A stretch of DNA of 64,000 nucleotides, from positions 186,001-250,000 of the forward strand of contig NZ_JAPDIA010000007.1 in the NCBI RefSeq assembly GCF_029525575.1, read 5' to 3'. The position numbers and the translations under genes are program-made. Shown here in pieces: positions 12,801 through 49,928 of this stretch. The notes beneath the pieces are model-generated. The model ran no database searches, had not been told where the DNA came from, and was given only the letters and a program-made list of their open reading frames with translations. The stretch is from Cohnella rhizosphaerae. GTDB lineage: Bacteria > Bacillota > Bacilli > Paenibacillales > Paenibacillaceae. Each line of letters starts with the position of its first letter. Within the stretch, counting starts at the first letter, position 1.

Positions 12801-14922
12801 CCCGTAAACGAATTGACCGAAGGCCATATCGGCTTCCGAACGACCTCGGCGGATGCCATGTTCGATCAAGTTCTCGTGACGGGCATCGCGCAGGCGCAGT
12901 CCGAGCCGCACAAGGCCGATGAATCCAAAAACGCCGTCACCCTCGACCGCAGCAGCGCGGCGGCAGGGCAAACGGTCGTCCTGACGGCCGAGGGGGACAG
13001 ACAGTCCGCTGACGGCGCCGTTGAGGGAGACGAGAAATTCGTTCCCGCGACCTGGACCTCCACGGAGGCCGGCAAAAACGGCAGCTTTGCCTGGGATGAG
13101 GCGGCGGGCGCGTACACCGCCAGCTATACCGTCTCCGAGGTCGGCTCTCATACCGTAACGGCTACTTTTCAGAAGCAAAGCTGGACAGATTCCGCTTGGG
13201 TTAACGAAACGACGGCTACTAGATCGGTGACCCTATCCGTCTATGCGCCGACGGACGTCAAAGAGAACCTCCTCGGCGTCAGTCCAAGCCAACTGGTGCT
13301 GGGGCAGACCGCCGTCGTGACGGCGGAGGGCTATCATCAGAACGCCGAGCCTTCGATCGTCGGCGAGGAGCGGTATTATCCGATCGCGTGGAGCTCCACG
13401 GAAGCGGGCAAGTCGGGGAAGTTTAGCGTCGTCGGACAAGTTTATCAAGCCGATTACACGCCCGCCGGGACAGGCATTTTTACGATCACGGCGACGTATC
13501 GGAATCAAGTATGGGACGGGGCGGCATGGAACGACGGCGCAACCGACACTAAAACCGTGGATCTGACGGTCGTTGCCCCACCGACAGACGGGGGCGATGG
13601 CGACGGTAACGGGGACGGCGGCGATGGTAGCGGCGATGGGGGGAACGCCTCCTTCGCCTGCACCGGGCACCGGGGGAACAACTACGCCTGCGGAAACGCT
13701 GCTCGATATCGGCAAGGCAACGACCGCGCAAGAAAACGGGAAGACCGTCACGACCGTCTCGATCGACCCGGTCAAATGGGAGCAAAAGCTGGCGCAGGGC
13801 GGCATGGGCGCCACCATCGTCATCCCGGCGGACTCCCCATCCGACAAGGTTGTGGTTGAATTGACCGGACCGTCGGTGAAGGCGATGGAAGCCAAGGAGG
13901 CCGTGCTGCAGATTCGGACGGAGAAGGCCGCCTATACGCTGACCGCGTCGCAAATCGACCTGGATGCCGTGTCGCGGCAGTTGGGGGCGCAGGCTGCCTT
14001 GCAGGATATTAAAGTCGGCATCACGATCGCAAAGCCCGCGGATGAAGTCGTCAAGCAAATGCAGGACATTGCCGGGCAGAAAGGGTACCGGATCGTCGCG
14101 CAGCCGGTTGCGTTCAAGATTACGGCAAGCAGCGGCAGCGGCGCGGTAGAGATCTCGAGCTTTAACGGCTATGTAGAAAGGTCCCTTCTTCTTGAAGAGG
14201 GAGCCGATCCGGGCCGGCTGGCGACGGGCGTCGTTTTCCACGAGGACGGGTCCTTCTCTCCGGTCCCTACCCGGACGGCGGTCGTCGACGGAAAAGCGTA
14301 CGCCAAGATCAACAGTTTGACCAATAGCATCTATGCGGCCGTATACAGCTCCAAGACCTTTACGGATATCGCTTCGCATTGGGCCAAGGATGCGATCGGC
14401 GACCTGGGCGCGAGGCTTGTCGTCGACGGCAGCGGCGACGGGCGGTTCGAACCCGACAGGGAGATGACCCGCGCGGAATTCGCGGCCATTCTCGTCAAGG
14501 GACTCGGGATCGCGCGGCCGGGTGCCGGAACGGATGTCTTTGAGGATGTGACCGGCGACAGCTGGTATTACGATGCCGTCGCGCTCGCGCATGCGTACGG
14601 AATCATCGACGGGTATGGAGACGGATCATTCGGACCGTCGGACACGATTACCCGCGAGCAGGCCATGACCATGACGGCAAAGGCGATGCAAATCACCGGA
14701 CTGAAGGATGAGCTGACGAAGGATGAAGCGGAGCTTCTGCTGGCCGGGTTCGAAGATGCCGGCGATGCTTCCGATTATGCCAGAGGCAGCATCGCATCTT
14801 CTCTGAAGGCCGGTATCATCTCCGGACGGAACGGAACGACGCTGGCGCCGAAGGATCCGATCACCCGCGCGGAGGTTGCCGTCATCGTTCAGCGGCTTTT
14901 GAAGCAATCCGGATTGATCTAG
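9802..14922 (+). CDS. Giant exported SLH protein with right-handed beta-helix (GH28/pectate-lyase-like), six frameshifts
   Basis: With single-base corrections this is one protein of about 1700 residues. Order: signal peptide (VWSLLLVLAIIFTSWIPQSVGA); a right-handed beta-helix (NADNTGATMASDAIQQAIDDA, then FENIDIERVGI-type coils) resembling polysaccharide hydrolases/lyases; two LamG-like jelly-roll modules (both FEDGDTxGW ... NFYMYR ... GFRTTSA) flanking a cadherin-like repeat; two Ig-like repeats; a Gly/Asp linker; and three SLH motifs. It probably binds and degrades polysaccharide at the cell surface. Frame changes at G6 10209-10214, A6 10468-10473, G6 10700-10705, G7 11328-11334, A6 11792-11797 and G6 13638-13643 each step by +1. 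AGGAGG precedes the ATG. The catalytic family is uncertain because the usual GH28 triad is only partly visible (EDDAIDI, SDDDTFS). Confidence 0.85.
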
Positions 14923-20810: not shown

Positions 20811-22319
20811 ATGGATCCCAAGAGAATCTGTTTTATCGTCGACGTGGATAACGAAGAGCAGAAACGGAAGTCCTTGTCCGCCATTCAAGCGCTCGCCATG
20901 CCCGAGGACATGGAGCTGGACATCATCCTTGTCGACGTCGGCGCTGGCGCCGCGCCGGTATACAACGAGGCCATGAAGGCCTCCGACGCCAAATACAAAG
21001 TATATGTGCAGCGGAATGCCCGGATCGTGAACCCAAACTTTATTGTCGACGCGGTGGCGCTCTTTCGGTCCCATGCCCGGCTCGGTCTGATCGGTATGGC
21101 CGGCGCAGATCAACTGCCGGCGAGCGGCAGCTGGCAGGATGCCGCGCACAAATACGGCAAAATGTACGAAAACCGGGACGGCACCATGGCGCCGGTCGTT
21201 TACGGAGAGGTGGACGCCGATTATCGCCGGGTCGCCGCCGTGGATGGCCTGCTCATGGCTACGCAGTACGATGTGCCGTGGCAGGCGGAGCCTTGCGGGG
21301 GACGGCAGTCCTGCGGCCCGTCGCAGGCGTTGGCGTTCATGAAGGCGGGGTACGAGGCCGGGGTGCCGTCGCAGGCGTACCCTTGGTGCGTACGGGAGGG
21401 CGGCATGCATACGGATTCATCGCGTGTCGAGCCGAATTCCCCGCTGCTGTCGATCGCCATTCCCACGTATAACCGCGCGGATATTTTGGAGCAGTGCCTG
21501 GCGTCTATTTATTCGCAGATCGGCGACGACGCGAATTTCGAAGTCGTCGTGTCGAACAACGCTTCGACGGATCATACGGAGCGGGTCGCATTGGCGTTCG
21601 CAAGCCGATACCCGACGATGAGGTACAGCAGGACCGGCGAGAATATCGGCGCCGACCGGAATGTCGTCCGCGTCCTGCAGGAGGCGTCGGGCCGATTCGT
21701 CCTGCTGCACGGCGACGACGATTACTTTATCGCGGGCACGCTGTACGACATTCTCCATGTGGCCGACCGGCACAGGAGCTGCGGCATGCTGTTCTTGAAC
21801 GTGCTGGCCGAGCCGCAGGCGCCCCGGCGCTTTACGGGCATGGACAGCTACTTGAGGGAAGCGTCGATCCATGCCACGTTCATCTCTTCCCTGGTCTTCA
21901 ACAGGAAGCAGCTTGCCGGAATCCCCGATCCGCTGCGGTTCGCGGGAAGCTTGTTGAACCAGCTTCATCTCCAGTACAGCGTATTGGAGCAGAACCCCGA
22001 ATTCTGCGTTCGTTACGGGCCTGTCTTCTACCCTTCCGCCAGCATCAGCGAATACAGCTACGCAGAGGTCTTCATCAAAAACTACCTGCGTATTATATCC
22101 GACTTCATCGGCAGGGGATTGACGAGCGAGGCGGTGTCCGCCGACAAGTTCAACATTTTGGGCCGTCATCTATTCCCGCAGTTCCAATATATTCGCCGGA
22201 GCGGCCTGACGCAGTTCGAGCCGGAGAAGTTCGTGGACGTTTTTATTGAACAATATGCCGGCGAGCCGTACTTCGAGGAGGCTTACCGCGTTTTGCTTGA
22301 CTTAATGAAGCAGGACTGA
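20811..22319 (+). CDS. Two-domain glycosyltransferase (GT2)
   Basis: An intact 502-residue protein. Residues 1 to about 200 form a GT-A-like domain of the glycosyltransferase-like type (ICFIVDVDNEEQ, VYNEAMKASDAKYKVYVQRN, LGLIGMAGA). Residues about 210-500 form a second GT2 domain beginning LSIAIPTYNRADILEQCLASI, with VVSNNASTDHT and the DxD-like LLHGDDDYF, similar to O-antigen abequosyltransferases. It is the first gene of the dideoxysugar operon, 37 bases before rfbF, and may transfer the sugar this operon makes. Confidence 0.88.
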   Translation: MDPKRICFIVDVDNEEQKRKSLSAIQALAMPEDMELDIILVDVGAGAAPVYNEAMKASDAKYKVYVQRNARIVNPNFIVDAVALFRSHARLGLIGMAGADQLPASGSWQDAAHKYGKMYENRDGTMAPVVYGEVDADYRRVAAVDGLLMATQYDVPWQAEPCGGRQSCGPSQALAFMKAGYEAGVPSQAYPWCVREGGMHTDSSRVEPNSPLLSIAIPTYNRADILEQCLASIYSQIGDDANFEVVVSNNASTDHTERVALAFASRYPTMRYSRTGENIGADRNVVRVLQEASGRFVLLHGDDDYFIAGTLYDILHVADRHRSCGMLFLNVLAEPQAPRRFTGMDSYLREASIHATFISSLVFNRKQLAGIPDPLRFAGSLLNQLHLQYSVLEQNPEFCVRYGPVFYPSASISEYSYAEVFIKNYLRIISDFIGRGLTSEAVSADKFNILGRHLFPQFQYIRRSGLTQFEPEKFVDVFIEQYAGEPYFEEAYRVLLDLMKQD

Positions 22320-22356
22320 CGGGGACTGTATTTTATACGCAAAAGGATGAGGGTCC

Positions 22357-23135
22357 ATGAAGGTTGTGATACTGGCGGGCGGGCTCGGCACGAGAATCAG
22401 CGAGGAATCCCATCTGCGGCCGAAGCCCATGGTCGAGATCGGGGGCAGGCCGCTGCTATGGCATATCATGAAGATCTACTCCCACTACGGCTATCAGGAC
22501 TTTATTATTTGCCTGGGCTACAAGGGATATTGCATCAAGGAATATTTCGCCCACTATTTTTTGCATGAATCGGACGTCACCTTTGACTTCACGAACGCCA
22601 ATCATCAAGTCATCCATCACCATGACGCCGAGCCGTGGCGCGTCACGCTGGTCAATACGGGGCTGGATACGATGACCGGGGGGGAGAGTGAGGCGCATCC
22701 GGCCCTATATCGGCGACGAGACGTTCATGCTGACGTACGGCGACGGCGTCGGCGACGTCGACATCGGGGAGCTGGCGCGGTTCCACAAGAGCCATGGGCG
22801 GCTGGCGACGGTAACGGCGGTGCAGCCCGGCGGCCGATTCGGCTCGCTCCGGCTGGGGGAGGACCGCGTCGTGCAAGGGTTCATCGAGAAGCCCAGAGGC
22901 GATCATGCCTGGGTGAACGGCGGATTTTTTGTTTTGGAGCCGGGGGGTTTTCGATCTCCTGGGCGGCGACGATACGGCGTTCGAGACCGGACCGCTCGAG
23001 ACGTTAGCCGCGAGCCGGCAGCTGATGGCCTACCGGCACTCCGGCTTCTGGCAGCCGATGGATACGCTGAGGGACAAGAATCATCTGGAGCAATTGTGGA
23101 AATCGGGCGCGGCCCCATGGAGGCGCTGGGCATGA
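22357..23135 (+). CDS. rfbF: Glucose-1-phosphate cytidylyltransferase, two frameshifts
   Basis: Makes CDP-glucose from CTP and glucose-1-phosphate. The nucleotide-binding start is [20 protein letters not shown], followed by [31 protein letters not shown] and [22 protein letters not shown]. It ends [21 protein letters not shown], as in RfbF. Frames shift at G7 22678-22684 and G6 22942-22947, one extra G each; a T6 run at 22925-22930 is in frame. The stop TGA at 23133 overlaps the rfbG start. Confidence 0.93.
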
Positions 23136-24263
23136 TCGACATCGACGCGGCGTTTTGGAGCGGGCGGAAGGTGTTCGTGACCGGCCATACCGGATTCAAG
23201 GGCTCCTGGCTGTGCCTCTGGCTGCGCGCCCTCGGGGCGGAGGTCACGGGCTACGGCCGGATGCCGCCGGCCGGGCCGTCGCTGTTCGAGCTGGCGCGGA
23301 TCGGCCGTACGATGACCTCGGTCATCGGAGACGTCAGAGATCCGGAGGGTCTCGCCGGCGCCATGCGGCGCGCGGCGCCAGAGGTCGTCCTTCATCTGGC
23401 GGCCCAGCCGCTCGTCCGGACTTCCTACAGGCAGCCCGTCGAGACGTATGCCACCAACGTCATGGGCACGGTCCACCTGCTCGAGGCCGTGCGCGCGTGC
23501 GGCTCCGTCAGGGCGGTCGTGATCGTCACGACGGATAAATGCTACGAGAACGACGAGCGGGATACCGGATATGCGGAGCACGACCGGCTGGGCGGGCGCG
23601 ACCCGTATTCGAGCAGCAAGGCCTGCGCGGAGCTGGTGGCGGCCGCGTACCGAAGCTCCTATTTTCATCCGGCGCACGATACGAGCCATGGCGCGGCCGT
23701 GGCCACCGCCAGGTCCGGCAACGTCATCGGAGGCGGGGACTGGGCGCAGGACCGGCTCGTGCCGGACTGCCTGGATGCCCTGCTGAACGGCGAGCGGATC
23801 CGCCTCCGCAGTCCGGGCGCCATACGCCCCTGGCAGCATGTGCTCGAGCCGCTCGGCGGCTATTTGCTGCTTGCGCAGCGCCTTTTCCGGGGAGGGATCC
23901 GCATTTGCGGAAGCCTGGAACTTCGGTCCGGCGGAGCGGGATATGAAGCCGGTATCCGAGCTGGTCGAGACACTGTGCGGGATGTGGGACGGCGCGGCCG
24001 GCTATGCGCCGGACGACGGAGACGGGAACCGTCCGCACGAAGCGCATGTGCTGAAGCTCATCTGCACGAAAGCGACGGCAAGGCTGGGCTGGCGGCCGAA
24101 GTGGGACCTCGATACGGCCCTCGGCAAAGTCGTGGAGTGGGCGCGCGCGTACAGGGACGGCGAGGACGCGGCGAAGCTATGCCTGGCGCAGATTGAACAA
24201 TACGGCCGACACGGGACGACGAGGCGAGGGGGAAGGACATGGATAACGAAGAGGCCGCTCTGA
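23132..24263 (+). CDS. rfbG: CDP-glucose 4,6-dehydratase, one frameshift
   Basis: Converts CDP-glucose to CDP-4-keto-6-deoxyglucose using bound NAD. It begins [20 protein letters not shown], with the Rossmann TGHTGFKG motif, HLAAQPLVRTSY, a TTDKCYEN active-site segment and YSSSKACAE (catalytic YxxxK). The start at 23132 overlaps the rfbF stop as ATGA, with GGAGG upstream. The frame shifts near G4 23889-23892, joining RLFR to EGSAFAEAWNFGPAE. The last 25 bases overlap rfbH. Confidence 0.93.
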
Positions 24264-25598
24264 GGCAGCAAGTGTTCGAAGCCGTCAAAAAAGCATTATG
24301 CGGTCAAGCACCGGAGGAAGCCGTATAAGCCCGGCGACGCCATCTCCTACGGGGGCCGCGTGTTCGACGAGAAGGATGTCCTCAACCTGGTCGATTCCGC
24401 GCTGGATTTCTGGCTCACGTCCGGCAAATATACGGCCGAATTCGAGAAGCGGTTCGCCCGTTTTTTAGGCGTGAAGTATTGCCTGACGACGAATTCGGGC
24501 TCCTCCGCCAATTTGCTGGCTTTTATGGCCCTCACCTCGCCCAAGCTAGGCGAACGGAGAATCCGCCGGGGAGACGAGGTCATCACCGTGGCCGCAGGGT
24601 TCCCGACGACGATCGCGCCCGCGATTCAGTTCGGAGCCGTCCCGGTATTCGTCGACGTCGAGATCCCTTCTTACAATGTAGATTGCTCGATGCTGGAACG
24701 GGCCGTGTCCGACCGGACCAAGGCGGTGATCATCGCCCATGCGCTCGGCAATCCGTTCGATCTGCGGCAGGTCAAGCGATTCTGCGACGCGCACGGCCTA
24801 TGGCTGATCGAGGACAATTGCGACGCGCTCGGCTCCCGGTACCTGTACGATTCGGTCTGGCGGTATACGGGCACGGTCGGCCATATCGGCACGTCCAGCT
24901 TCTATCCGCCCCATCATATGACGATGGGCGAGGGCGGCGCCGTCTATACGAACGATCCGCTGCTCAAGCGGCTGCTGGAGTCGTTCCGCGATTGGGGGCG
25001 CGATTGCTGGTGCGCCTCCGGCTGCGACAACACCTGCAGGCGGCGGTTCGGCCAGCAGTTCGGCGAGCTGCCGTTCGGATACGATCACAAGTACGTATAC
25101 GCCCACTTGGGCTATAACCTGAAAATCACCGATATGCAGGCCGCCGTAGGCTGCGCCCAGCTGGAGAAGCTGCCCGGATTCATCGCCGCCAGAAGACGCA
25201 ACTGGGAGCTGCTGCGCGCGGGCCTCGCCCCGCTGTCGGACGTATTCGTCCTGCCCGAGGCCGCGGACCATGCCGAGCCCAGCTGGTTCGGATTTGTCCT
25301 GACGCTGTCCGATGCCGCGCCGTTCAGCCGCGCGGAGCTCGTCGCGCATCTGGAATCGAAAGGCATCCAGACCCGGATGCTGTTCGCCGGGAATCTGATC
25401 AAGCATCCCTGCTTCGACGAGCTGAGGGCCGGCGGCGGCGGATTCCGGACGATCGGCGACCTGCCCCGTTCGAACCGGATCATGGAGCGCACCTTCTGGT
25501 TAGGCGTGTATCCGGGACTGACGGAGACGATGATCGCGCATACGGTCCAGTGCATCCGGCAGTTCTGCGCGGATCGCCGGCAGCGTGATCCGCTATGA
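24239..25598 (+). CDS. rfbH: CDP-4-keto-6-deoxyglucose 3-dehydrase (E1), one frameshift
   Basis: A PMP-dependent, iron-sulfur 3-dehydrase of about 452 residues that removes the C3 hydroxyl on the way to 3,6-dideoxysugars. The usual aminotransferase lysine is replaced by histidine in SSFYPPHHMTMGEGGAV, the E1 hallmark. The cluster cysteines are visible in DCWCASGCDNTC. The N-terminus LRQQVFEAVKKHYAVKHR becomes continuous after removing one A from A6 24287-24292. The partner reductase E3 (rfbI/ddhD) is not in this window. Confidence 0.93.
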
Positions 25599-26684
25599 AT
25601 CGGCTGCCCGAGGACGACTTTGCGTCGCTGCTTCCTTATATTCCGGAGCCGGAGGCATGGCGGGGGACCGCGTGGTTCATCACCGGCGGCACCGGCATGC
25701 TGGGCTCGTATGTGCTCCGGTTCCTCGGCTGGCTCAACGAGACGCGGCTCGACCGGACCATGAGCGTCACGGCGGTGCATCGAGGCGAGCTCGGGCCGGA
25801 CCATCCGAACATCGGGTGCCTGTGGGATCGCCCCTGCATTCGGTTCGTGCGGATGGATCTCCGGGAGACGCGTCATCTCGACCTGGACGGGTACGACTAC
25901 GTGATCCACGCCGCCTCCAACGCGGCGCCTGCCTCTTATATGGACGATCCGATCGGGACGATCAACAGCAATGCGGCGGCGCTGCAGGCGATGCTGGAGG
26001 GCTGCAAGGGCAAGGCGCGGTTACAGAAATTCGTATTCGTAAGCTCCGGGGAAATATACGGCGACCCGGATGCCGGCCATGTGCCGACCGGCGAATCGTA
26101 TATCGGCGCTACCGATCACTTGAGCCCGCGGTCTTGTTACGTCGAGTCCAAGCGGTTCGGGGAGACGCTCTGCGCGGCTTACGCGCGAGTCCATCGGATC
26201 CCGATCACCGTCGTAAGGCCGGTTCACATTTTCGGACCGGGGTTCAGGCCGCGCGACGGCCGGGCTTGGGCGGACTTTATCGGGAAAGCGGCCGACGGCC
26301 GGGATATCGACATTTGGAGCGACGGCACGGCGCGCCGCGGCTTTTGCTATTTGGCCGATGCCCTGTCGCAGCTGTTCGCCGTCGTGCAGAAGGGGGGCGC
26401 CGGGGGAGGCGTACAACATCGGCAGCGACGAGTCCGTATCGATCAAGGACTTCGCCGGCATGGTCGCGGCTTGCGCGGAGCAGCCCGTGCAGGTGCATAT
26501 TCGCAACCGTCTGCCGGATTATATGATCGGCAGCCCGCGCATCTCGTGCCCGGCCATAGCGAAGGTATCGGCGTTGTCTCCCCCGCTGAAGACGCCGCTT
26601 GCCGTAGGCATCCGCAAAACGATGGACTGGTACCGGGCGCAGTATGTCTCCCGCGGTCAGGAAAGCGAGGGTGAATCACGATGA
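25595..26684 (+). CDS. NAD(P)-dependent epimerase/reductase, likely CDP-sugar C4-reductase, one frameshift
   Basis: An extended SDR of about 362 residues. The Rossmann motif is ITGGTGMLGSYVL, the catalytic serine lies in FVSSGEIYGDP and the active pair in CYVESKRFGE; VVRPVHIFGPGFRPRDGRA follows. It resembles CDP-abequose/paratose synthases and UDP-glucuronate decarboxylases. From its place directly after rfbH it probably reduces or epimerises the 4-keto group of the CDP-dideoxysugar. The frame shifts at G6 26392-26397. Both ends overlap neighbours as ATGA. Confidence 0.86.
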
Positions 26685-27912
26685 CGGATCAGGTCTATGC
26701 GGCGATCAAGCGCTGCCGCGCCTGCCGCAGCGAGCGGTTGACGGAGTTGCTCCGCCTGCGCGATGTTCCCGCAGCGGGGGATCTACGCCGAAGAGAACGA
26801 GAGGCTCGATATCAGACTGCCGCTGACGCTCGCGCATTGTTCCTCGTGCGGACTGGTTCAGCTGAGAGAGACGATCGGTCCGGAAATATACCGTCACTAC
26901 AGCTTTGCCGGCGGCACGTCGGCGTCCTACCAAGCCTATCTGGACCGGCTGGCCAAGCAAATCGTCGTCGAGTACGAGCTGCGCGAAAAAAGAGTGTACG
27001 AGGTAGGCGCGGGGGGACGGTACCTTCCTAAAATGCCTGGCGGAGCACGGGGACAACGAAGCCGCCGGCATCGAGCCTTCGCAGAAACTGTGCGCTGCCG
27101 CGGCGGAAAAAGGCGTTCAGGTACGGCAGGGCTACTTCAACGCGGCGTCTGTCGCGGATGCCCGGCCGGAGCCGTACGACTGCGTCGTCGTCCGGCATGT
27201 CCTCGAGCACATCGACGACCTCCACGATATGATAACGTCCCTGCGGTTCATTCTCAAGGAAGACGGCGTACTGCTCGTCGAGGTGCCGAGCTTGGAGAAG
27301 ACGGTGGAGAACCGCAGCTACTCCAATCTGTTTCACGAGCATCTGAATTATTTCTCCGTTCCGGTATTAAGCCGGCTTTTCGGGCGATACGGGTTTACCG
27401 TGGATCGCGGTCGGTTCGTCGATATCCACGGGGGCTCCATTCTCATGCTGTTCAGGCTTGGGCATGCATCGGCCGAGCCGATCGCCACGACCGGCGGACC
27501 GGTCGCGGCGGCTGCGGCTGCCGATCCGGAGCCGGTCCGCGCGTTTGCGGCCGATGCACCGCGTTATTTCGCGCGCGTGCGCGAGCGAATCGCATCGCTG
27601 GCGTCCGGCGGGAAGGTCGTGCACGGGTACGGAGCCTCGCACCGGACCTTTGCCCTGCTGGGCGGCGCGGGGCTGGACGAACGCCAGGTGCCGGTCATCT
27701 ACGACGTCAATCCGTTTTTGCGCCGCAAGAGGCTGAACGGAATCGGGTCTCTGGTGCTGTCCGCCGACGGGCTGCAGCAGGCTTCGGATCATCCGGACGC
27801 CATCGTCATTCTCGCCCTCTCCTATCAGGCGGAGCTCGTTCGTCTTTTAAGGGATCAGTACGGCTATGCGGGCGACATCGTGACGCTCGGCGCGGAGGTG
27901 AACCTTCCATGA
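26681..27912 (+). CDS. Zinc-site sugar C-methyltransferase (NovU/TylCIII type), two frameshifts
   Basis: An SAM-dependent C-methyltransferase of about 410 residues. The N-terminal zinc site uses CRACRSERL and CSSCGLVQL (paired CxxC). The SAM-binding glycine motif is VYEVGAGDGTFLKCL, then VRHVLEHIDDLHDM and FHEHLNYFSVPVLSRLF. The C-terminal domain has GYGASHRTFALLGG and YDVNPFLRRKRLNG, as in enzymes that methylate carbon atoms of 4-keto nucleotide sugars. Shifts occur at G5 26776-26780 and G6 27011-27016. It suggests a methyl branch on the sugar. Confidence 0.9.
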
Positions 27913-28701
27913 GCCAGGCGGTTAACATCCGGAAGGCGCTTGTGCGCATGATGCACAGCTCCGGTTCTTCGCATATCGGCACATGCCTGTCGATGGTGGA
28001 CATCTTATACGTGCTTTACTTCCGCATCCTGCGGATCGAACCCGGGGAGCCGAAGAAGCCCGACCGGGACAAATTCATATTAAGCAAGGGACATGGCAGC
28101 GCGGCCTTGTACGCCACGCTTGCGGAGCGGGGCTTTTTTTGCGGCGGACGTGCTGGACGGATATTACGTGGACGGCGGATCGCTCCCCGGCCATCTCGAC
28201 AAGGATGCGGTCCCCGGCATCGAAGCATCGGCAGGCTCTCTCGGGCACGGGCTGTCGATCGGGCTCGGGATGGCGCTCGCCAACCGCCAGACGGGGAACC
28301 CGGGGCGCGTCTACGTGCTCGTCGGAGACGGGGAGTGCAACGAGGGGAGCATCTGGGAGGCCGCGATGCTGGCTGCTCATCTGCGGCTCGGCGGGCTGAC
28401 CGTCATCGTCGACTTCAACAAGCTTCAAGGCTTCGGCAGAACGAACGAGGTGATCGACCAGTCGAACCTGTCGGACCGGTGGCGGGTATTCGGCTGGGAA
28501 GCGCACGAGGTCGACGGTCATGACGCCGATGAACTGGAGCGGGTCCTCCGACTGCCTCAGACAGGCCCCAAGGCGATTATCGCCCACACGGTCAAGGGCA
28601 AGGGCGTATCGTTCATGGAGGATCGGCTGGAGTGGCATTACCGATCGCCGGACGACGCGCAGAAGTCGCTTGCGATCTCGGAGCTCGAGGGACGCGTATG
28701 A
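27909..28701 (+). CDS. Transketolase N-terminal (TPP-binding) subunit, one frameshift
   Basis: A protein of about 263 residues equal to the N-terminal third of transketolase. Thiamine pyrophosphate contacts are visible in ILSKGHGSAALYA, SLGHGLSIGLGMA, the GDGECNEGSIWEA motif, and DFNKLQGFG. The frame shifts at T7 28134-28140; removing one T joins ERGFF to AADVLDG. The ATG overlaps the methyltransferase stop. Split transketolases often act in secondary and surface-sugar pathways. Here it may transfer a two-carbon unit to a keto-sugar. Confidence 0.92.
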
Positions 28702-29586
28702 GGAGCACGTTTATCCGGGAGCTTCTTTCGCAGGCGGCCGTCGACGATCGCGTTTTCCTCATTACGCCGGATATGGGCTTCTCGGTGCTGGAGCCGTTCG
28801 CCGCCCGGTACCCGGACCGCTTCCTGAATGCCGGCATCGCCGAGCAGAATGCCGCCGGCATCGCGGCCGGGCTGGCACTGTCGGGGAAAATCGTCTATGT
28901 GTACAGCATCATTCCCTTTATCACGATGCGGTGCTTCGAGCAGGTCAGAGTCGATATCGCCTATATGAACACGAACGTCAGGCTGATCGGCGTCGGAGCC
29001 GGCCTAAGCTACGGTCCCGCGGGAGCGACGCATCATGCGATCGAGGATATCGCCGTCATGAGGGCCCTGCCCAACATGACCGTATGCTGTCCGGGAGATC
29101 CCGTCGAGACGAGGGAGCTGATCAGGCGCAGCTTCGCGCACGACGGGCCGATGTACTTCCGGCTGGGCAAGAACGGCGAGCCCCGTATTCATGCGGATGA
29201 ACGCACGATCCCGATCGGAGAGGCCGTCACGGTGGCGGAGGGCACGGACATGGCCTGCTTCGTCACCAGCACGATGCTCGAGCCGGCCTGCCGATGGGTC
29301 CGGGAGTGGCAGCGGGCGGGGAAGTCGGTGCTGCTGGCCAGCTTCCCGACGGTCAAGCCGCTCGATGTCCCGTACATTCAACGCGTGATCGACAGCGGCA
29401 TGCCGATCCTGACCGTCGAAGAGCACAGCGTCATCGGGGGGACTCGGCAGCGCCGTGGCCGAGGTCGTCGCGGAATACGGGAAGGCGGTCTCCTTCAGAC
29501 GCGTCGGGATTCCCGACCGGTATTCGCATGTCGTGGGCAGCCAGGATTTTCTCCGGACCCGGATGGGCGTGGTGAGGCCCGAGTGA
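28698..29586 (+). CDS. Transketolase C-terminal subunit, one frameshift
   Basis: The partner of the preceding gene, about 295 residues. It has the pyrimidine-binding domain (FLNAGIAEQNAAGIAAGLAL, with the conserved glutamate) and the C-terminal domain (EAVTVAEGTDMACFVTSTM ... ILTVEEHSVIGG). The frame shifts at G6 29436-29441; after correction it ends RYSHVVGSQDFLRTRMGVVR. The start overlaps the previous stop as ATGA. It is the last gene of the dideoxysugar operon. Confidence 0.92.
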
Positions 29587-38952: not shown

Positions 38953-41900
38953 ATGAAAAACTACGCAAAGCTCAGACGATCGTTGGCGCTGTTGCTTATT
39001 TTGGCGCTCGTGCTGCCGTTTGTACGCCTTCCGGCTGCCTCGGCTTCATTCGCGCCGCTTTACGACACGATTAATTACGACAATCCGCCTTCGGCGCCCG
39101 CGTATCGGTCGCTGCCGTCGGGCAGCTATGTGGCTGCGCCGTTTCGCATCAACAACGCATACGGCGAGATTAGCGCGGTCATGCTGAACGCCAAATACGA
39201 AAATACGAGCCGGCCGACCGTCACGAAGGCCAAGATGTCGGTCGCGATTTTCGCCGACGACGGCGGCAAACCGGGCGCGATGCTCGCCGGAGCGGTCGGC
39301 AGCTACGAGCTGGAGGATCAGGTCGATCTGGGCGGCCAGTCCAACCCCTTTAGCCTTTTTTTACATTTCGCTTGAGGAGCCTGCCAAGTTGTACCGCGAC
39401 CGGCAATATTGGATCGTCTACGGCACGACCGATGCCGACGCCGCCAGAGCGAGCCTGGTCGGCGTCAACGAGCAGCCGCTGTCGGAGCAGCAGGGGACCA
39501 ATAACTATGTCGCCGATCTCTATCAGCCTGCCCGCGTCGAGGAGAGCTCGCGCGTCATTTACAGCCTTCAAGACGCCGGCTCGGACATCGCGGGCACGGA
39601 CTGGAGCGGCGCCCAGCGGACCGACGGCCAGATCTTGCCGTTCGTGCTGAACGGCTGGGTGTCGGAGCCGCACGAGAATTTGAGCGTGCAATTCGCGACC
39701 GACACGATGGCGCGCGTCTTTTTTCGGTCCGTCCGCCGACGCGACGGAAGTCGTGCTGGAGCAGTCGGAAGATGAGGGCGCCACCTGGACCGTCGCGAAT
39801 GCCGGCCCGCTGGACCAGTATTCGAACGACGCCACCGTGACCGGACTTAAACCGGAGACAGCTTACTGGTTCCGGCTGGTCGTCAAGGACGGCAGCAGCG
39901 GCGGCATCTCCAATACGGGGCAGATCACGACGCTGCCGGATAGCGGATGGCGGCTGGTGGGCGAGGCGGGCTTCAGCGGACAACTGGTGCGCGACACCGA
40001 GCTCGTTCTGGACGCCGCGGGCATTCCTTATATCGCTTATGTCGATCAAGCGATGACGGGCAAGATTATCGTGAAAAAGTTTACGGGAGCGGCCTGGGCG
40101 TCCGTCGGCGCCGAGGCGACCGACGAACAGGCGTCCAGCGTCTCGCTGGCGCTCGACGGCGAAGGCCGACCGTACATTGCTTATACGGCAGTGGCCGACA
40201 GCTTGCTGACCGTGCGCAAATTCGACGGAACGGCATGGACGACGGTAGGACAAGCCGGCATCGGAGAGGGCGATCTGCCCGATCTCAAGCTGGATGCCGC
40301 GAACCGTCCGTATGTCGCCTACCGCGATCTGGCCGGCCCGCTCGGCGGCGCCATCACCGTATCGACATTCGCCGACGGTTCCTGGCAGCCGGCCGGCGCC
40401 GCTCAGTTTACCCCCGAGACCAGCGTGCAGCGCCTTTCGCTCGCCATCGGCAAGGACGGCGTTCCGTACGTCGGTTACTTTGCCGTCCCGGACGGCTCGT
40501 ACAACAGCTACAAACCGTTCGTGTACCGGTTGGCCGGGGGCGCCTGGACGGACATCGGCTATTCGGGCTTCGGTACGCCTCATTCGGCGTCCGTTCGAAT
40601 CTCGCTGGCCGCAAGCCCGGTAGACGGCGCGATATACGCCGTCTTCGACGACACGAACGTTAGCCGCATGCCGAGCGTCATCCGTTGGAACGGCAGCGAC
40701 TGGGATGCGATCGGATCTCCGGGCATCGCCCCGCGCGCGGATTCGCTGCGGATTGCGGTAGACAGCCAAGGCGTGCCTTATGTCGCGTACTCCAAACGCA
40801 ACGAGGGCGGAGGGCCGGTCAGCGTGCTGCGCTGGAGCGGCACCGCATGGGAGAATGTAGGGGGGCGCCGATTTTTCCGGCGGCGCCGCCTACGACATTT
40901 CGCTTGCGATCGATGCCGGGGGAAGACCTTACGTATCCTACGCGGATCAATTGGAAGGCCAGAATTCGACGGTCAAAGTATATCCGAAGCCGATCTCGAA
41001 TCTGTCCGCGGCGCGGAGCGGCGACCAGGTGCTGCTTAGCTTCGACAAGCCGTCCGGCGCCATGCAGGTTGCCGTGCTAGTATCCGCCGACGGGGGGACG
41101 AGCTGGGTGCCGGCGGCCACGCTGCAGCCGCTCGATTATGCCTCCGGCACGGCGACCGTGACGGGGCTGTCGGCGGGGACGGACTACCTGTTCAAGCTGG
41201 CGGTCGTCGGAGGCAGCCGCGGCGGCGATTCGAACACCGCGGCGGTGGCGGCCCTGGCGCAAGTCGCGGCCGTGACGGCCGCGCCGGCCGCCGGCGCGGT
41301 CGCCTCGGGTACGACCGTTGCGCTCTTCTCGCCGACCGAGGGCGCCGTGATCCGCTACACGACGGACGGCAGCGAGCCGACGGCGGACAGTCCGGTCTAC
41401 GAGGGGCCGATCGCGATCGACGCCGCCAAGACGATCCGGGCGATCGCCTGGAAAGACGGCATGGTCAAAAGCGCAGTCGCCAGCTTCGCTTATACCATCG
41501 CGGTGGCCGGCGCGCCGGCGACGGTGTCGCCTGCCGTCCAATCGGTGACGCTTAACGTGGTGGACGACAAGGGCGCGGTACTGAGCGATCCGCTCACCAA
41601 GCTCGTCGGGTCGCAGCTCGCGCTCGCAGGACAGCTGCTGTCCGCAGACGGCAAAAGCCTCGGCTATGCGCCCGTGACGATCAAGAGCGGGCAGCCGATT
41701 CAACTGCCGGCGCTTGCCGCGGGCACTTACAAGCTCGTGCTGAACGTGGTCGCGCCGAACGGAGAAAAGCTCGCGGGCAAGATCGCGAAGCTGACCGTCG
41801 ATGCCGCGGGGAACGCCACGATCTCGTCCGAGCTGATCGATCCGTACGGTATCGTGACGGACGCTCTGACGGGCAAGACGGTAGATGGCGTCAAGACGAC

Positions 41901-42846
41901 GCTTCACTGGAGCGACACCGCGCTGAACAAGTCGAAGGGCCGTACCCCGGGCGCGCTGGTCGAACTGCCCGAGCTGCCGGACTTCGCGCCGAACCAGAAT
42001 CGCGATCCGCAGACGAGCACGGACGGCGGCAAGTACGGATGGATGGTTTATCCGGACGGCGACTATTACATTCTGGGCGAGAAGGACGGCTATGTCGCAT
42101 ACGACAGCCGCCAGGATACGCGCACCGAGCAGCATGGCGAGGACAGCTACGTAAAAGACGGCAATATCCACGTCGGCCAATCCATCGTCGAATACAGCTT
42201 CAAGATCATGCCGAAGGCCAGCGGTTCCGGCACGCACGCAGCCTATATGAAGGGCTATCCGGACGGCAGCTTCAAGCCGGCCAAGGGCGTGAGCCGGGCC
42301 GAGTTGGCCGCCGTCCTGACCCGCACGATGGCGCAGAAGGAGACGGGCGAAAAGGCGATCGCCTTCAAGGACGTGTCCGCCAAGCATTGGGCGTCCGCCG
42401 GCATCCGAACCGCTGCCGCGCAGGGCTGGATGAAGGGCTACGCCGGCGGCTTGTTTAAGCCCGAAGGCCAGGTCACGCGAGCCGAGCTTGCGCAGGCGCT
42501 GACCAATCTGTACGGCTGGGACGAGGCCGGGAACGGCGCGTCGACGTTCGCCGATACCGCCTCGCACTGGGCGAGCGAAGCGATCGCGGCCGTCCGGGCC
42601 CAAGGCATTATGCAAGGCTACGAGGACGGCACCTTCCGTCCCGACCAGGCCGTCACGAGAGCCGAGGCGGTGAAGGTGTTCAACCAACTGCTTAAGCGAA
42701 GCCCGGGCCAGACGGTCGGCGTGCCCGCCGTGTGGAACGATGTATCCGACACGCACTGGGCTTACGCGGATATTATGGAGGCTTCCGTCAACCACAGCTA
42801 CGTCTTGTACGAGACGGGTCTGGAACAGTGGGGCAAATCAAACTGA
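38953..42846 (+). CDS. Exported SLH protein with propeller-like repeats and chitobiase-C-type domain, three frameshifts
   Basis: About 1297 residues. Order: a signal peptide (RRSLALLLILALVLPFVRLPAASA); a jelly-roll-like N-domain; a fibronectin-type segment (ATVTGLKPETAYWFRLVV); six to seven repeats around the motif GIPYIAYVD / RPYVAYRD / GVPYVAYSK, likely a beta-propeller; another FN3-like segment; a CHB_HEX_C-type domain (GAVIRYTTDGSEPTADSPVY); a carboxypeptidase-regulatory-like module; and three SLH motifs at the end. Shifts occur at T7 39356-39362, T6 39719-39724 and G6 40860-40865. Probably a cell-surface binding protein without an evident catalytic domain. Confidence 0.88.

Positions 42847-47825: not shown

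Positions 47826-49928
<2,103 letters not shown>

Follow-up and report, generated by a model that had tools for sequence, protein, structure and literature searches.

The 64,000-nucleotide stretch of Cohnella rhizosphaerae DNA analyzed here (hereafter, the window) carries an operon in which the genes rfbF, rfbG and rfbH are preceded by a glycosyltransferase gene and followed by genes for an extended short-chain dehydrogenase/reductase (SDR), a sugar C-methyltransferase (CMT) and the two subunits of a split transketolase, TKN and TKC (Table 1). An earlier note, made from the sequence of this stretch, had read the operon as a route to a branched CDP-3,6-dideoxyhexose, and Pfam and NCBIfam profiles together with the list of open reading frames confirmed every gene that it named in its assigned place. 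The ATGA overlaps that it described were likewise borne out: those joining SDR to CMT (26681-26684), CMT to TKN (27909-27912) and TKN to TKC (28698-28701) were read in the sequence, and that joining rfbH to the SDR gene (25595-25598) was deduced from the ends of the open reading frames. The operon belongs to contig C8 of a genome of 8.5 Mb, which is 91.5% complete in 9 contigs. Several of the operon genes contain frame changes, on which the earlier note is silent, and intact relatives were used for analysis in place of these frame-broken genes.

Table 1 Genes of the operon in the window.
Feature	Position	Strand	Evidence and remarks
Glycosyltransferase (Glyco_tranf_2_5 + GT2)	20811..22319	+	Pfam; homologue in the same place in L095 (Thermolongibacillus altinsuensis)
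rfbF, glucose-1-phosphate cytidylyltransferase	22357..23135	+	TIGR02623 in two pieces (192.9 and 110.8 bits, each under the cut-off of 300.25 owing to the broken frame); end from sequence
rfbG, CDP-glucose 4,6-dehydratase	23132..24263	+	TIGR02622 equivalog, 390.4 bits (cut-off 278.45); two frames; end approximate
rfbH, CDP-6-deoxyhexulose 3-dehydrase (E1)	24239..25598	+	NF011936 (NCBIfam RfbH equivalog), 701.8 bits (cut-off 423), 705.8 bits in genome search; start inferred, clean open frame used from 24306
Extended SDR	25595..26684	+	PF01370; frame broken in last third
Sugar C-methyltransferase (CMT), TylC3/TcaB9 type	26681..27912	+	PF08484 (Methyltransf_14); frame broken
TKN, transketolase N-terminal subunit	27909..28701	+	PF00456 (Transketolase_N); closest solved chain 6yak; frame broken
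TKC, transketolase C-terminal subunit	28698..29586	+	PF02779/PF02780 (Transket_pyr, Transketolase_C); closest solved chain 6yaj; frame broken near 3' end

We scanned GTDB contigs with a TKC alignment, which returned 248 relatives, and kept the best 80. At least two of rfbF, rfbG and rfbH were present in 51 of these best 80 loci, rfbF and rfbG in 47 and all three in 37; among the 44 loci whose flanks exceed 7 kb at each end, the corresponding counts were 32, 31 and 25. Except for five records to which no phylum is assigned, the 51 Rfb-linked loci fall into 12 named phyla, including Bacteroidota (18), Bacillota (9), Melainabacteria (5), Pseudomonadota (3) and Campylobacterota (3). Three of the 51 are labelled Archaea, and many are metagenome bins for which single labels are unsafe. 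The nearest named TKC relatives include several Paenibacillus. The gene order of the window, from the glycosyltransferase through rfbF, rfbG, rfbH, SDR and CMT to TKN and TKC, is kept in T. altinsuensis (L095) and in Anoxybacillus thermarum (L102). Between the window and L095, the glycosyltransferases are identical at 185 of 516 positions (36%; L095:2090-3679) and the first segment of the SDR shows 52% identity. The coupling of the Rfb route to a split transketolase, which the earlier note had described at one locus, is a conserved and widespread unit. The search that it proposed, for rfbFGH beside split transketolase and C-methyltransferase genes, showed the gene set to recur widely. A CMT relative was present in 7 of the 80 loci, making CMT an optional part of the unit and not its core, and RfbH too is optional.

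Within the Paenibacillaceae, RfbH exceeded its cut-off in 46 of 295 genomes, that of the window included, and the other 46 RfbH loci (45 genomes; L039-L084) were fetched. Three of these 46 (L039, L044 and L054) carry TKN and TKC, in the order rfbH-rfbF-rfbG-SDR-TKN-TKC, and the longer TKN segment of the window is 69.5% identical to TKN of L044. The RfbH proteins of these three loci (L044:9347-10906, L039:9320-10903 and L054:9101-10660) are N-terminally extended, at 519-527 amino acids, and the DegT domain of L044 starts at residue 124. As a control, TKC was searched across the same family, giving matches at 90 places (E up to 1e-55) in 80 of the 295 genomes. RfbF and RfbG lay close by at 11 of the 11 best matches, were missing beside the twelfth (L215) and accompanied none of the 12 lower-scoring matches fetched (L216-L227, of 78), a difference between 11/11 and 0/12 with a Fisher value of 7e-7, the rows being related. 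Furthermore, the Rfb label needed 4 changes on a tree built from 96 TKC rows, whereas shuffled labels needed 18.1 on average and none of 500 shuffles came down to 4. This tree omitted partial or divergent rows (L092, L126, L131, L146, L158, L224 and L226) and duplicates (L039, L054 and L129), and the window row was long because its frame-shifted tail was retained. The tree and the family control together indicate that Rfb linkage follows TKC phylogeny.

The gene content of divergent units narrows what they share. Seven family loci (L208-L214) hold rfbF, rfbG, CMT, SDR and the transketolase genes without a nearby rfbH, and a genome-wide RfbH search at E 1e-150 found none in six of the seven genomes, the remaining one (G141) having a copy elsewhere. 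In L116 and L119, the transketolase pair stands with a GDP-mannose-dehydratase-like gene, SDRs and a DegT-family gene and without RfbF, RfbG or RfbH (Pfam on L116); such loci are probably a GDP-sugar version of the unit. The order GDP-mannose-dehydratase-like gene, SDR, TKN, TKC, SDR and DegT-family gene was observed in L116 and L119 and partly in L127, where the first of these is unlabelled. Given that RfbH is dispensable, the constant of the unit would be the 4-keto sugar, and judging from these gene sets the common factor of the transketolase units is predicted to be an NDP-4-keto-6-deoxysugar.

In addition, we examined what stands in the place of the transketolase in sister clusters. Of the 46 family RfbH loci that were fetched, 22 encode an acetolactate-synthase-type thiamine diphosphate (ThDP) enzyme, and in 15 of the 46 its gene follows rfbG on the same strand at a distance of at most 200 bases. 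The enzyme of L041 has a TPP_enzyme_N/M/C architecture, whereas the window pair consists of Transketolase_N and Transket_pyr domains in two chains, and no acetolactate-synthase-type match was found in the 64 kb window. The enzymes encoded after rfbG are predicted to be YerE-like in function. Examples with such a YerE-superfamily gene directly after rfbG are L040, L041, L057 and L065, and in L057 the next gene is of the NAD-dependent epimerase/dehydratase family. It is possible that these loci are yersiniose-type clusters in Gram-positives.

Gene fusions tie TKN to the sugar-modifying genes. SDR and TKN form a single protein in six Paenibacillaceae genomes (L209-L214; Pfam on L211 and L214), whose clusters also contain rfbF, rfbG, CMT and TKC but lack rfbH, and CMT and TKN form a single protein in L125, a record titled as a Klebsiella pneumoniae bin. 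Moreover, an SDR-family gene other than rfbG occurs within three genes before or two after the transketolase pair in 41 of 46 GTDB loci with rfbF and rfbG, a count that was made by family labels, may include RmlB-type neighbors and omits L169, which lacks a labelled transketolase frame. A strict SDR motif rule, which gave 27 of 53 loci with rfbF and rfbG (the 80 GTDB loci plus the fetched family loci), was dropped as it missed SDRs recognized by Pfam.

Subsequently, we mapped the active site onto E. coli TktA, reading H26 and H66 of the window in its own frame. TKN and TKC keep H26, H66, H100, H261, R358, E411 and H473 as well as the GDG motif with its asparagine (GDG..E..N), whereas H461 is replaced by glycine, D469 by alanine and R520 by lysine in the window and three relatives; to these residues we attribute presumed catalytic, acceptor and phosphate-binding roles. 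At S385, one alignment gave phenylalanine or tyrosine and another a gap, its placement depending on the alignment. Across the 51 Rfb-linked TKCs, R358, E411, G461 and H473 were present in 51, K520 in 40 and D469 in none. In the passages on engineered E. coli transketolase variants in PMC3657141, D469T and D469A are reported to raise activity on propionaldehyde only, and H461S and R520V to raise it on both glycolaldehyde and propionaldehyde. By analogy with these variants, the natural changes thus lean toward an acceptor that lacks an alpha-hydroxyl group, which would be the situation at C3 of CDP-4-keto-3,6-dideoxyglucose.

From these observations we propose a route in which RfbF would form CDP-glucose, RfbG would convert it to CDP-4-keto-6-deoxyglucose and RfbH, using electrons from a donor whose gene lies outside the operon, would yield CDP-4-keto-3,6-dideoxyglucose. 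With ThDP as cofactor, TKN/TKC would then transfer a hydroxyacetyl (ketol) unit from either a ketose phosphate or hydroxypyruvate to the ketone at C4, so that a tertiary alcohol with a 4-C-hydroxyacetyl branch arises. The SDR might reduce the new ketone to a 1,2-dihydroxyethyl branch, and CMT might methylate a carbon adjacent to a ketone, which would be C3 if it acts before the branch is added or a position on the hydroxyacetyl arm if it acts afterwards; we put forward these SDR and CMT details tentatively. It is very likely that the transketolase pair acts in the CDP-sugar pathway, and we favor, as a probable account of its chemistry, the transfer of a two-carbon unit to the C4 ketone. The ketol transfer suggested by the earlier note is the best reading because the acceptor residues are changed, a YerE-superfamily enzyme occupies the corresponding place in sister clusters and TKN is fused to SDR or CMT. 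The product of the operon would thereby probably be a branched CDP-3,6-dideoxyhexose, which the single encoded glycosyltransferase could attach. More broadly, the balance tips slightly toward the idea that a broad family of split transketolases across bacteria and archaea evolved to accept the ketones of NDP-4-keto-deoxysugars, adding a hydroxyacetyl arm that SDR and CMT elaborate, and that their genes can be exchanged for YerE-type ones in clusters that are alike in other respects.

Several observations weigh against this proposal. The scan patterns were built from four Rfb-linked TKCs and favor close relatives, and no Rfb gene was found in 12 of the 44 long-flank loci. No SDR was found close to the transketolase pair in 5 of the 46 loci with rfbF and rfbG. 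The two ThDP types occurred together in 0 of 47 family loci (the 46 and the window), but the expected overlap was just 1.9 loci and the probability of none was 0.07, so the weight lies in the position after rfbG and not in exclusion; in the GTDB set, 4 of the 80 loci (L110, L118, L120 and L142) hold both, and strict exclusion is not claimed. These four loci suggest two branching steps or two sugars. The residue changes are also shared more widely: G461 was present in 28 of 29, and K520 in 15 of 29, of the other GTDB loci, which have fewer than two Rfb genes, and a catabolic-looking second split pair of this genome has S461 and L469. Changes of the G461/A469/K520 type therefore appear, from these alignments, to mark a wider TKC clade, Rfb-linked or not, and the residue signature was rejected as proof of Rfb function. 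Moreover, the lost residues should presumably weaken the use of phosphorylated donors too, making the donor uncertain. Lastly, a transketolase with a keto-sugar or nucleotide-sugar ketone as acceptor has only been proposed and is described as still pending in section 2.3 of PMC12247030.

The second split pair corresponds to L227 and L171 (G000:C5:1236742). In L218, which carries a relative of this pair, the neighboring genes encode an isomerase-like protein that scores under the cut-off of its family and a kinase that exceeds the one for glycerol kinase. Apulose-4-phosphate transketolase was considered as a precedent for a ketone acceptor and kept as a lead; nothing on it was found in open-licence PMC papers, and NCBIfam does not give the relative of the second pair that name.

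The strongest alternative is that the transketolase pair makes a sugar phosphate, such as sedoheptulose 7-phosphate, from which another building block of the glycan (a heptose, for instance) is formed, and that nothing but the shared operon links it to the CDP-dideoxysugar genes. Genuine split transketolases exist, the closest solved chains are titled split-chain transketolase, and the catalytic histidine and glutamate residues are kept. Against this stand the changed acceptor site, the fusion of TKN to an SDR and a sugar C-methyltransferase, and the operon itself, in which no heptose pathway gene was recognized beyond a sub-threshold generic SDR match (21 versus 274.6 bits). Furthermore, a canonical transketolase gene is encoded on contig C4 of the same genome, with 937.6 bits on TIGR00232 (cut-off 682.25); the window pair reaches 76 bits in its best piece, and the intact halves of L044 reach 159.6 and 50.6 bits. 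We therefore consider this alternative unlikely, and a housekeeping transketolase was rejected as the principal reading on the grounds of the canonical gene and the altered acceptor site. Action on pentose phosphates only, which the earlier note had set against its own proposal, is disfavored by the same separate gene.

A second alternative has the SDR reduce CDP-4-keto-3,6-dideoxyglucose, with or without a methyl already added, at C4, so that the product would be an unbranched or 3-C-methyl dideoxyhexose and the transketolase would act on another substrate or after glycosyl transfer. Extended SDRs do include C4 reductases, and the solved relatives of the intact SDR orthologue include GDP-6-deoxy-D-lyxo-4-hexulose reductase (2pk3, 6e-11). 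Its best solved-structure matches, however, are UDP-glucuronate decarboxylases and other extended SDRs, leaving the label "C4 reductase-like" in the earlier note without firm ground. Moreover, C4 reduction would remove the acceptor before the transketolase pair could act, and the pair is found with three sources of a 4-keto sugar, namely CDP with RfbH, CDP without RfbH and the GDP-mannose-dehydratase family (L116). This alternative is improbable in our assessment, and ketol transfer to the C4 ketone remains our preferred reading.

Decay of the operon into a pseudogene cluster in this strain is very improbable: although tblastn with intact relatives placed frame changes inside rfbF (which spans three frames), rfbG, SDR, CMT, TKN and TKC, six of the seven frame-change stretches inspected hold a run of five or more equal bases (operon background, 23 such runs in 7,238 bases), a second canonical-type transketolase of the same genome is likewise split over two frames, the assembly has the incompleteness given above, protein similarity continues past the breaks and relatives hold intact copies. 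The homopolymer runs and the other frame-broken transketolase make sequencing indels look likelier than decay.

The E3 partner of RfbH is a protein of about 330 amino acids. Its absence from the window, recorded in the earlier note, was confirmed and could be widened. A search for E3 (Fer2 plus flavin domains) in the same genome yielded two Fer2 matches only, in frames of 175 and 195 amino acids. Across 12 RfbH-bearing Paenibacillaceae genomes, this one included, no Fer2 match came near the size of an E3, the largest frame among the 21 listed matches being 195 amino acids, and one of the 12 genomes had no Fer2 match. In this family RfbH thus seems to draw on a different electron donor, unless its E3 is divergent or frame-broken.

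With regard to the destination of the sugar, the scanned neighbors of the operon, a flavodoxin-fold protein, a TetR regulator and an NAD(P)-binding protein upstream and a WYL regulator and a DinB protein downstream, look unrelated, and the operon therefore seems to stand alone with its one glycosyltransferase. An S-layer or wall glycan, as the earlier note had it, found no particular support: flaG, fliD and fliS begin about 6 kb past the end of the operon in L095, and a flagellin gene lies about 8.5 kb before rfbH in L054, so that for these relatives a flagellin glycan is as plausible as a wall or S-layer glycan. The window encodes SLH-domain proteins at 13573-14922 and 40951-42846. On the minus strand at 47826-49853, an open reading frame combines collagen triple-helix repeats with SLH domains and is possibly a glycosylated surface protein.

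If the proposal is correct, glycans of Bacteroidota, Bacillota, Campylobacterota and other groups are predicted to contain a class of branched sugars, and the split transketolases would join the YerE-type and alpha-keto-acid-dehydrogenase-type enzymes as one more ThDP route to branched sugars of the cell surface; they would also offer natural templates for tertiary-alcohol biocatalysis. The clusters supply dozens of candidates with a defined, enzymatically accessible acceptor, where candidates had previously come from Streptomycetes only, and the Thermolongibacillus and Anoxybacillus homologues are suited to assay.

No description of this gene set was found in open-licence PMC papers, and the transketolase passages of PMC3692452 and PMC13042536 do not describe it. 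A recombination region of Campylobacter fetus contains two transketolase subunits and a methyltransferase, to which the relevant passage of PMC5013579 assigns no function. Among solved sugar C-methyltransferases, the intact L095 homologue of the window CMT matches 4rv9 (1e-28), TcaB9 and 5t64. Its alignment with 4rv9, a D-mycarose 3-C-methyltransferase, covers most of the protein and includes a shared HEH stretch; unlike TylC3, TcaB9 and 5t64, the window CMT lies on a CDP route with 3-deoxygenation, beside a transketolase. For both transketolase subunits the closest solved chains belong to the split transketolase of Carboxydothermus hydrogenoformans (6yaj/6yak), which retains H461, D469 and R520 where the window has G, A and K.

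In the yersiniose pathway, the reductase YerF reduces the branch once it has been added. According to the pertinent parts of PMC12247030, YerE and ErwE belong to the decarboxylase superfamily, and the substrate that ErwE joins to CDP-4-keto-3,6-dideoxyglucose is a hydroxylated alpha-keto acid, so that a branch with a hydroxyl is not by itself unique to a transketolase. The resemblance to yersiniose A and erwiniose lies in this acceptor and in a ThDP enzyme that forms a tertiary alcohol (PMC12247030); the difference is that YerE-like enzymes use alpha-keto acids, whereas the present units have a two-chain transketolase, at times together with a CMT. A second likeness is to the split transketolases suggested for miharamycin and amipurimycin, with a proposed transfer of hydroxyacetyl to a keto sugar (PMC12247030). 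The survey cited in section 2.3 of that paper (Krug et al. 2024) lists 13 split-gene transketolase sequences, all from Streptomycetes and none characterized in vitro, whereas the present CDP-sugar clusters occur in many phyla. Branching of a CDP-4-keto-dideoxysugar by a ThDP enzyme is thus already known, and what appears new, judging from the gene clusters, is a transketolase in the place of YerE.

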